Source: Nitrososphaerota archaeon (GTDB lineage Archaea; Thermoproteota; Nitrososphaeria; Nitrososphaerales; Nitrosopumilaceae). From it: DNA of 42,674 bases. Numbering within the stretch: the first letter of the stretch is position 1; each line of letters starts with the position of its first letter. Below the pieces are notes generated by a model, which had not been told where the DNA came from, made no database searches, and saw only the letters and a program-made list of their open reading frames with translations. Below are positions 31,516 to 33,475 of this stretch, one piece after another. The stretch is taken from NCBI GenBank assembly GCA_028866655.1, contig JAGWHQ010000013.1:1-42674 (forward strand). The letters are read 5' to 3'. The translations under genes and the position numbers were made by a program.

Positions 31516-32262
31516 TTGGAGTTGATAAACATGAATACCAAAGATTTGCGTGAAAAAGAGGAAAAGCCGGGAAATGAGAAAGAAGTTAAAGTAGATGATA
31601 AAATGGTCCAAATAATAATTGATAGCTCATCTGATGTATCCCTTGATGATTTTCAGATAAACGACAAGAAAGTATTGTCATTGTTAAATCAAGACAGTGA
31701 TGTCAATGATAATCAGTATACATTCAATGGACTTGTACGAAAATTAGGAATCCATCAACAAAGCTTGGCAAGATCCTTGCATAGGCTAGAGAGTGCAGGA
31801 CTTGTAAAGAAAACAGATTATGGTTACAAGATTACAAACAATCTTGATTTGGTACTTGCAAAAAAGTCTCGAATTGATCTTGAAAATCTTTCCAAGACAA
31901 TTTCACCACAGTATGCTCAATTTGAACAGATAATCCAGCTCTATATCCCAACCACTGTCAAAGTTGAAGATATTGTAGCCAAATTGCTTGGCAAGTGGTT
32001 TGGTACTCTTAGGTGGATTGGCATAGTTGAGGGAGATGGAGGATGCGTATTACAGTGGACAAGTGATGACAAGTATCATGTAAATCTCAAACTAGTCACA
32101 AGATACGCAGTTGTAGAAAGTGATGCGGTGGGAGCAAAAGACAAGTCAGAAGCCACTATAAATGCACACCGAATACTTGAACATATCACCAAATTGCTCA
32201 AAGAGAACCAGGTACAGCGTGATGCAAAAAGTCAGTATAGCTCTTTTGACATGTATAATTGA
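31516..32262 (+). CDS. Winged-helix regulator with C-terminal ligand-like domain
   Basis: The 248-residue protein has a polar tail at the N-terminus and a wHTH at about 75-115 (FNGLVRKLGIHQQSLARSLHRLESAGLVKKTDYG). The C-terminal domain (about 140-240) contains RWIGIVEGDGGCVLQWTSDD and a beta-rich core followed by a helix, resembling a sensor domain. The annotated TTG start is at 31516; the ATG at 31531 would remove five residues. It follows the zinc-ribbon gene by 9 bases and probably shares its transcript. Confidence 0.72.
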   Translation: MELINMNTKDLREKEEKPGNEKEVKVDDKMVQIIIDSSSDVSLDDFQINDKKVLSLLNQDSDVNDNQYTFNGLVRKLGIHQQSLARSLHRLESAGLVKKTDYGYKITNNLDLVLAKKSRIDLENLSKTISPQYAQFEQIIQLYIPTTVKVEDIVAKLLGKWFGTLRWIGIVEGDGGCVLQWTSDDKYHVNLKLVTRYAVVESDAVGAKDKSEATINAHRILEHITKLLKENQVQRDAKSQYSSFDMYN

Positions 32263-32294: not shown

Positions 32295-32422
32295 ACAGAC
32301 TTGAGAGCGCCTTATCTCAGACTGCATATGGGATTAGATGGTAAGACTCCTGCGGAAAAGTGTGGAATTAAGATTTTGAAGGAAATAACAAATGGATAAC
32401 CTTAATTCAAAATTCTATGATA
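32295..32422 (+). pseudogene. Decayed transposase C-terminus (copy A)
   Basis: A short reading frame ending at 32399 carries RLHMGLDGKTPAEKCGI (32319-32369), the C-terminal hallmark of DDE transposases (H-x-L-x-GKTPAExxGI). In another frame the next bases encode GNNKWITLIQNS (32381-32416). That is the expected continuation, so a frameshift lies between them. The start codon of the next gene falls inside this remnant. Read by eye; the family is probably IS6-like. Confidence 0.5.
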
Positions 32423-32745
32423 CAAAAATATATAACGAAAATCAAATAGTGCGGTACATGCAATCGCTAAACCCAGAGCAGAGGATTGCATTTACATCTT
32501 GCATTGAAGTGGTGCTAATGAGAAGTGGAAATACCCGCCATAATGCAGTTTTGGCTAAACTTGGAGCATATTACAACTGCGGAGGCTTGCAACTTCTTGA
32601 GAATATAGAACATTTGGAATATGTATTGAAGGAAGTATACTGTGATGAGTATGATTCTATTTTGGATAATATCCGTTCTGAAACTGATCAGTTAGATGGC
32701 TTGGATGAATTCAAAGCCCGTTTTTTCAAAATTATGAAAAGCTAG
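32392..32745 (+). CDS. Helical protein of unknown function, inside a transposon-derived module
   Basis: The 117-residue protein is helical with three cysteines (TSCIEV, YNCGG, VYCDE). Its first codons (MDNLNSKF) overlap the tail of a decayed transposase in another frame, so the true start could be ATG 32458 (MQSLNPEQ), giving 95 residues. It lies between transposase copy A and a conserved 53-base element, in the same relative place as the following gene. No family is recognised. Confidence 0.5.
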   Translation: MDNLNSKFYDTKIYNENQIVRYMQSLNPEQRIAFTSCIEVVLMRSGNTRHNAVLAKLGAYYNCGGLQLLENIEHLEYVLKEVYCDEYDSILDNIRSETDQLDGLDEFKARFFKIMKS

Positions 32746-32756
32746 TTTAGGTTTGT

Positions 32757-32809
32757 CATAACCGACGAAAATTTACAGAAAGAATTTCCAACGGAGACTT
32801 TACAGAACC
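32757..32809 (+). repeat. 53-bp element, copy A
   Basis: From CATAACCGACG to ACTTTACAGAACC. It aligns without gaps to 33263-33315 with 39 of 53 identical bases, ending in the shared core ACTTTACAGAACC. That end resembles an insertion-sequence terminal repeat (reverse complement GGTTCTGTAAAGT). One copy follows each of the two small genes. Confidence 0.6.
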
Positions 32810-32823
32810 AAACGGTGAGAGAT

Positions 32824-32877
32824 GTTAATGGGGAAAACAAGTGGATAACTTTAATTCAGAATGCAAGTAAAAATTAA
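32824..32877 (+). pseudogene. Decayed transposase C-terminus (copy B)
   Basis: The frame encodes NGENKWITLIQNASKN and a stop at 32877, matching copy A (GNNKWITLIQNS). Only the extreme C-terminus is recognisable; the KTPAE motif is absent. The next gene starts 6 bases after this stop. DNA around it is nearly collinear with copy A (GGAAATAACAAATGGATAACC against GGGGAAAACAAGTGGATAACT). Confidence 0.5.
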
Positions 32878-32883
32878 GAGAAG

Positions 32884-33246
32884 ATGGCAGGAAAAATCGA
32901 TATAGAAAATGATAATCTAATCTTCATATTAACTGGAATAGACAAGGTACTCGCTCTAAAGAGTAAACTTACAATTCCGTTGAATCATGTCAAGTCGGTA
33001 TCGACAGATAAGGCAGACTGGAACTATTTCAAGATGTTAAAAGTAATGGCTACAAGGATTCCCGAAGTGGTAGCGGATGGGATATTCGTAAGCAAGGAAG
33101 GTTTCCTTTTCTATGAGATGCATGATCCTAACAAGTGTATTACAGTCGAGTTGGAAAATGAAAAATACAAAAAAGTTATCTTCGAGGTTTCGGATAAGGA
33201 GGCTAGTGCAAAAATGATTCAGGAAGCACTTGATGGATTACATTAA
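32884..33246 (+). CDS. PH-like domain protein
   Basis: The 120-residue protein is alpha/beta with the order expected of a bacterial PH-type domain: a strand-rich core (LIFILTGIDKVLALKSKLTIPLNHVKSV), two more strands (DGIFVSKEGFLFYEM, CITVELENEKYKKVIFEV) and a final helix. The family includes YdjC-adjacent and bPH proteins; the role is unknown. It starts 6 bases after transposase remnant B and ends before the second 53-bp element. Confidence 0.6.
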   Translation: MAGKIDIENDNLIFILTGIDKVLALKSKLTIPLNHVKSVSTDKADWNYFKMLKVMATRIPEVVADGIFVSKEGFLFYEMHDPNKCITVELENEKYKKVIFEVSDKEASAKMIQEALDGLH

Positions 33247-33262
33247 CAAGATACGAATTGAC

Positions 33263-33315
33263 CATACCCGACGTTTTTTGACAGAGAGAAAATCAAACAA
33301 CAACTTTACAGAACC
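33263..33315 (+). repeat. 53-bp element, copy B
   Basis: From CATACCCGACG to ACTTTACAGAACC. It is the partner of 32757-32809. The pair brackets the second module (transposase remnant B plus PH-like gene). The downstream boundary of homology ends at the GAACC. Confidence 0.6.
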
Positions 33316-33358
33316 CATTTACGATCAGACTTTTATGTAATGAATGCATATTATTTGT

Positions 33359-33475
33359 ATGATTACGGATAGTTCTACAAAAAAACATGGATTGCGAATT
33401 CTAAAAGGCGTAAAGATAGTACTCAAAAGCATTGTATTGGATCTTGAAGAATCAGAGTCTCCAAAAAAACCTTGA
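33359..33475 (+). CDS. Possible 38-residue basic protein
   Basis: An ATG frame of 38 residues (THE N-terminus is MITDSSTKKHGLRILKG, ending ESPKKP). A TTTTATGTAA box about 26-30 bases upstream gives a plausible leaderless start. It is basic, with no recognisable domain. The rest of the 33.3-33.6 kb stretch shows no other gene I can support. Confidence 0.35.
   Translation: MITDSSTKKHGLRILKGVKIVLKSIVLDLEESESPKKP

Follow-up and report, generated by a model that had tools for sequence, protein, structure and literature searches.

Probable tandem remnants of IS6-like archaeal transposons with cargo genes in a Nitrosopumilaceae genome

Related mobile elements

Elements of the IS6, IS26 and IS240 type are characterized by an IS240-type DDE transposase domain, 8-bp target duplications and GG..CTGT ends, and only one member that carries a passenger is listed for the family in a 2021 review (PMC7986276). 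In a tIS, IS ends surround a transposase together with unrelated genes, and in a mobile insertion cassette (MIC) cargo lies between IS ends, with a target duplication and without a functional transposase. Tn7-like transposons insert repeatedly at one point beside a gene, stack there and carry defence-rich cargo. The bacterial elements TnGBS, ISLre2 and ISKra4 (p-MULT, with Mutator-type transposases) insert upstream of promoters at a short, set distance, landing 15-17 bp before the -35 box recognized by sigma-A, most of them with one end turned toward the promoter (PMC3942029). In thaumarchaea, cargo transposons went undetected in a published survey (PMC6563490).

We analyzed a stretch of 42,674 nucleotides (contig JAGWHQ010000013.1, assembly GCA_028866655.1, family Nitrosopumilaceae), referred to here as the window, in which a short region very probably represents an array of decayed cargo-carrying transposons. 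They would belong to an IS6-like archaeal family whose insertions occur upstream of TATA-like promoters and stack. This family has the domain, duplication length and end type of IS6, IS26 and IS240, but differs in its transposase of ~375 aa, which has a SWIM and zinc-ribbon N-terminus and scores under the NCBI cut-off, and in its elements, which measure 1.9-6.5 kb, carry cargo, insert close to promoters and stack. Where the transposase is complete, the delimited elements are organized like a tIS, except that cargo is here the rule, usually differs from copy to copy and lies on both sides of the transposase; the modules of the window do not have the two ends and duplication of a complete tIS and are remnants only. 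The resemblance to Tn7-like transposons extends to repeated insertion at one point beside a gene, stacking and defence-rich cargo, whereas a single DDE protein was recovered here and many different promoters serve as targets. No description of this IS6-like cargo family was found in the open-access literature searched; absence there is no proof of absence.

The two modules of the window

The left landmark of the insertion site is a resident gene for a winged-helix (MarR-like) protein of 248 aa (31516-32262; all features are on the plus strand unless stated otherwise), which has weak MarR/HTH matches in profile searches and is retained, with synteny and 78-84% nucleotide identity, in the relatives G035, G006, G004, G029 and G011. 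On the right, a small conserved resident gene (MITDSSTKKHG...; 33359-33475) lies downstream of a TATA-like TTTTAT box (33331-33336). The flank 33323-33468 is conserved in G035, G004, G029 and G006, and the flank ATCAGACTTTTATG is kept in relatives where the site is uninterrupted. The site is adjoined by minus-strand genes for proteasome subunits (window:33645-34886), and independent insertions between them and the 248-aa gene are found in several species.

An earlier note, made from the letters of the window, had described two tandem modules here, each consisting of a decayed transposase C-terminus, a small unrelated gene and a 53-bp element. Both transposase tails are indeed present. Tail 1 (about 32312-32413) is the 5'-truncated and frameshifted 3' end of an IS6-like transposase gene; many genomes have intact transposase genes whose 3' ends match it at 74-85% nucleotide identity. 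Its reading frame runs through ...LRLHMGLDGKTPAEKCGIKI and is then displaced by ~2 extra bases ahead of NKWITLIQN. Tail 2 (32821-32877) starts 11 bp past the end of module 1 and comprises only the last 18 transposase codons (DVNGENKWITLIQNASKN*). Gene 1 exists as an open reading frame (32392-32745, 117 aa as listed), but the listed start falls inside tail 1, and ATG 32458 (~96 aa) is the likelier start. It lies ~30 bp past a TATA-like leader (AATTCAAAATTCTATGATACAAAAATATATAACG; 32403-32437) that directly follows tail 1 and is of the same type as the leaders of gene-1 relatives. Gene 2 (32884-33246, 120 aa) has an intact reading frame. Neither frame matched any family in a Pfam/NCBIfam profile search, and gene 2 gave no significant match in a sequence search of the PDB; its description as PH-like was not borne out by a single-sequence AlphaFold model with a mean pLDDT of 44.

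The two 53-bp elements, right end 1 (32757-32809) and right end 2 (33263-33315), align without gaps at 39 of 53 positions (74%), exactly as had been reported, and rank first among the direct-repeat families found in the region. Each was compared with a set of 98 terminal sequences, 96 from 48 delimited elements and two from one composite. Right end 1 reached a best score of 67, against the right end of L296, and right end 2 a best score of 64, against the right ends of L296 and L248; the maxima among 200 shuffles of the window 53-mers, with the first eight bases held fixed, were 53 and 52. Since both outscore all 200 shuffles, the copies are not due to chance. In reverse complement, right end 1 has the outer sequence GGTTCTGTAAAGT.. 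and the inner motif CGTCGG, a bipartite structure like that of intact elements, and by sequence the 53-bp element is a bipartite transposon end. The octamers AAACGGTG (32810-32817) and CATTTACG (33316-33323) occupy the target-duplication positions beyond right ends 1 and 2, respectively. A left end and a paired octamer were sought for each module and neither was found, so that no module is now a complete element. A search of a plasmid collection with the region gave no match.

Gene 2 recurs with the same tail in G004:C23, G036:C252, G001:C224 and G090 (C4), at 79-93% amino acid identity and always outside the syntenic site of the window, which in G004 is on contig C19. The tandem order tail-gene-end-tail-gene 2-end recurs on G004:C23. 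The mobile branch of gene 2 has a dN/dS of 0.11-0.21, which is purifying selection. Homologues without a tail, ~55% identical, occur in other genomes and at C2:8165 of the window's own genome, suggesting capture from a chromosomal gene. A search of viral contigs for gene 2 found none. Judged from these comparisons, module 2, made up of tail 2, gene 2 and right end 2, is a decayed cassette and a true passenger module.

Intact elements, their cargo and their insertion sites

A search of 150 relatives with the region returned dozens of tail matches in 61 genomes. Elements were called as GGnnCTGT...ACAGnnCC pairs between identical flanking octamers, so the calls rest on the end motif and exact duplications; their open reading frames are mechanical and some are surely spurious. 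Some of the stretches are metagenome bins, and L284, labelled as a gammaproteobacterium, may be mis-binned. The first search gave 16 elements and a wider set 18, against 0 at 11 control offsets; a named genome collection of 80 contigs gave 43, against 2, 0, 0, 0, 0, 0 and 0 at control offsets. After overlap of both sets, 48 distinct elements remain, with perfect 8-bp target duplications and lengths of 944-6533 bp (median 3182). Those with a full transposase measure at least 1855 bp, and extra frames are present in every one. The idea of an IS lineage carrying passengers between transposase stop and right end is thereby strongly supported: intact elements with a transposase ending in ...NKWITLIQN, a right end of the ...ACAGAACC type and perfect duplications, whose absence from relatives would have spoken against it, exist in many genomes, nearly all with cargo in that position. 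Passengers are not confined to it, however, as cargo is also found left of the transposase.

Each intact element has two bipartite inverted ends, for which the 98 terminal sequences give the consensus GGTTCTGT.... Within an end, the motif found at +16 to +24 appears a second time ~26 bp further in, at ~+42 (mean shared string 5.71, vs 4.24 with sd 0.10 for mismatched ends), and the left end of an element has it in common with the right end (9.25 vs 4.00). The ends of L088:1316-3603 have different recognition motifs, of the CGGTTGAT class and the GGGACAT class, as if this element were a recombinant of two lineages.

In the transposase, an N-terminal part with a SWIM-type motif (CxCPDHxFRHVCCKHIHA, identified by eye) and a zinc-ribbon is followed by a DDE domain of the IS240 type. 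The latter gives the best profile match (PF13610, DDE_Tnp_IS240, 62.1 bits, cut-off 27); Transposase_mut (17.8 bits, cut-off 21) is not reached. The label IS6-like of the earlier note holds for the domain, but the score of 115.5 bits against NF033587, the NCBIfam IS6 equivalog, is below the cut-off of 125, and for this reason we name the protein IS6-like without filing it as an IS6 member. This transposase is widespread in Nitrososphaeria and other archaea, with hosts in Nitrosotalea, Nitrosopumilus, Nitrosarchaeum, Nitrosotenuis, Nitrosocosmicus and Nitrososphaera as well as Methanoperedens, Bathyarchaeota, Thermoplasmata, Methanomethyliaceae and an Asgard bin. The family also reaches contigs classed as viral, since the IMG/VR contigs L346, L347 and L348 carry a transposase or tail. 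After ...NKWITLIQNA the sequence is wholly different from copy to copy. Among transposase fragments shorter than 210 aa, 32 keep the C-terminus and 3 the N-terminus; the 3' part may be kept together with the cargo, perhaps as a leader or promoter. A bare 40-bp tail is found at L006:1501-1540 (C1:4802-4841 of the window's own genome), just past the likely 3' end of a tRNA gene.

Cargo is highly variable. The first 18 elements contain 58 cargo frames, with no more than three matching pairs across elements, and even transposases that are 81-82% identical (L089/L092, L091/L110) accompany unrelated cargo. The majority of frames have no recognized function. Predicted products include a HaeIII endonuclease, D12 and Eco57I-type methylases, GmrSD, HsdR-N and HNH proteins, AbiV (two, with AbiV cargo in L116), Fic, RelA/SpoT, DUF3800, DUF4145, NurA and ParB; restriction-modification cargo is present in L146 and L174. 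To the right of the transposase, 20 of 23 cargo frames in the first set are co-directional with it, and they often begin within or just past its last codons. Small MazE-like genes are among the cargo to the left, and three left-hand genes (L104:204-1034, L108:317-1240, L112:282-1208) encode divergent proteasome-beta-like hydrolases.

Two further forms preserve both ends. L248 (G027) is a non-autonomous element of 944 bp with identical 24-bp inverted ends and the target duplication CAAAATGA, containing only 86 codons from the transposase 3' end and cargo. It resembles a MIC in having cargo between IS ends, a target duplication and no functional transposase, but it retains the 86 codons, unlike a MIC, and the window modules differ further in having no left end. 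L248 has the layout of the window modules, except that its left end is preserved. As the only tail-bearing non-autonomous element with both ends, it offers a hint of mobilization in trans. The composite L158:1476-3824 (G006:C1, about 200475-202822) has near-identical inverted ends of ~175 bp, each with a decayed tail, and encloses genes for an aldo-keto reductase and an NAD-dependent epimerase within a perfect 8-bp duplication (CAAAATAC).

When TATA-like starts are counted outward from the target duplications, 44 fall in the five positions 4-8, compared with 35 in the 29 positions 10-38. A TATA-like box 4-8 bp away, on at least one side, accompanies 31 of 48 elements, which fall in 24 distinct flank groups, whereas control windows give 2-10; the remaining 17 of 48 have no such box at this distance. 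The promoter is on the right only in 12 cases, on the left only in 16 and on both sides in 3, and of 23 cases measured, 22 have a start codon 22-42 bp past the beginning of the TATA-like box, as expected for the short-leader transcripts of archaea. The fixed promoter distance recalls p-MULT, but the transposase is IS6-like and not of the Mutator type, and elements insert in both orientations with no fixed end facing the promoter. In 13 of 48 elements the octamer is abutted exactly by another end, always head-to-tail. In all 13 the older end is on one side and the promoter on the other, which indicates that newer copies enter between the promoter and the older copy.

Right end 2 of the window has the same geometry, with TTTTAT at +7 from its octamer and an ATG 28 bp further. 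Ends in the window, G003, G011 and G036 fall at the same site, at an equal distance from TTTTAT. The G003 element, on two contigs, has its left end after the host stop codon and is flanked on either side by the octamer AAATTGAG, the left copy with an additional A; G011 has a tail-cargo-end remnant with the octamer AAAGATGG, and G036 a bare end. One flank group, which adjoins radA in L092, lies beside seven elements (L092, L091, L104, L107, L102, L275, L329) in several genomes; in this promoter region repeated insertions have different target octamers, resembling use of an attachment site. Stacking is also seen on contig C2 of the window's own genome, in the order R-end/TTAAACCA/L-end. The stretch L150:5300-7453 of this contig comprises stacked remnants, namely a tail with a small zinc-ribbon gene and a second transposase 3' fragment with a right end, followed by TTAAACCA and the left end of an element running off the contig.

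Origin of the array and its meaning

Genes behind decayed tails might be explained by an ordinary IS without cargo, ending soon past its transposase stop and leaving host genes as downstream neighbours. A different gene directly follows the tail in many copies, as would random host neighbours, and a few elements do end 7-126 bp past the stop. In most of the 48 elements, however, the right end and matching 8-bp duplication lie 230-2860 bp past the stop, beyond the cargo, with almost none in controls, and gene 2 has spread to several loci together with its tail. The target duplications refute this explanation for the family, leaving it at most for individual decayed copies, and it is very improbable. 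The related notion that each tail is joined to random host DNA was rejected because the duplications lie beyond the cargo. An integron-like cassette system, with the tail and 53-bp element as recombination sites of a site-specific recombinase, would account for the tandem recurrence of tail-gene-end modules in the window, on G004:C23 and on contig C2, and for their conserved borders and hypervariable content. The borders are nevertheless transposase coding sequence and the end of a DDE transposon with 8-bp duplications, the octamer is not common to the modules, unlike in an array made by one recombinase, and general recombination between copies accounts for the exchange without a new enzyme. 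Such a system, with an integron-like recombinase, has no support and is very unlikely.

The alternative that carries most weight concerns module 1, which may be no cassette at all: a decayed IS tail upstream and a separate IS right end downstream would flank a resident gene 1. In its favour, the site from the 248-aa gene to the ATCAGACTTTTATG flank is uninterrupted in G035, G006, G004 and G029 and holds there a ~95-aa member of the gene-1 family; gene 1 is preceded by a family-type leader of its own; and its descent from the locus gene is not rejected (p-AU 0.06). Against it, gene 1 is only 35-42% identical to the locus genes and up to 55% identical to copies elsewhere, with which it groups in the tree (support 98/91), outside the 99/99 clade of locus copies, and relatives in G036:C252, G090:C10, G020 and G021 also adjoin decayed tails or ends. 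On present evidence the chances are even, and gene 1 may be either a passenger or a resident. Given its leader and the family member at the locus in relatives, what is proven to occur twice in tandem is the sequence pattern alone: the passenger reading holds for module 2 and may apply to module 1.

In the preferred explanation, a cargo-carrying IS6-like family, the sequences show that insertions are situated, in either orientation, just upstream of TATA-like promoters of archaea and that each new element enters between promoter and older element, giving head-to-tail stacks. Beyond this, the following course of events may be proposed. Transposase supplied in trans might move the short forms, and targeting promoters while sparing gene bodies could reduce harm to the host. 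Cargo may then be swapped by recombination between stacked or co-resident copies through their common transposase gene and ends, after which the transposase would decay while useful cargo is retained with its 3'-tail leader. Module 2 of the window is such a remnant at a promoter-proximal site and module 1 an older one, in which the enclosed gene may be cargo or resident.

More tentatively, and with somewhat less than even confidence, the family may constitute a pan-archaeal gene-capture platform in which the transposase reads BRE/TATA core promoters, successive copies stack there, and recombination between them reshuffles defence and other genes to the left and right of a conserved transposase. 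If so, archaea would have in it an equivalent of Tn7 islands and integrons that rests on an element with a single transposase. Cargo-carrying elements, with predicted defence genes and an apparent recognition of archaeal promoters, are abundant from Nitrosotalea to Methanoperedens and Bathyarchaeota. The cargo slot is an easy source of new archaeal defence genes, and the family a candidate tool for promoter-directed insertion. Through its cargo, promoter-side landing and pile-up, it may be a major route of gene swapping among ammonia-oxidizing archaea, and it offers a testable mechanism for gene gain in these organisms.
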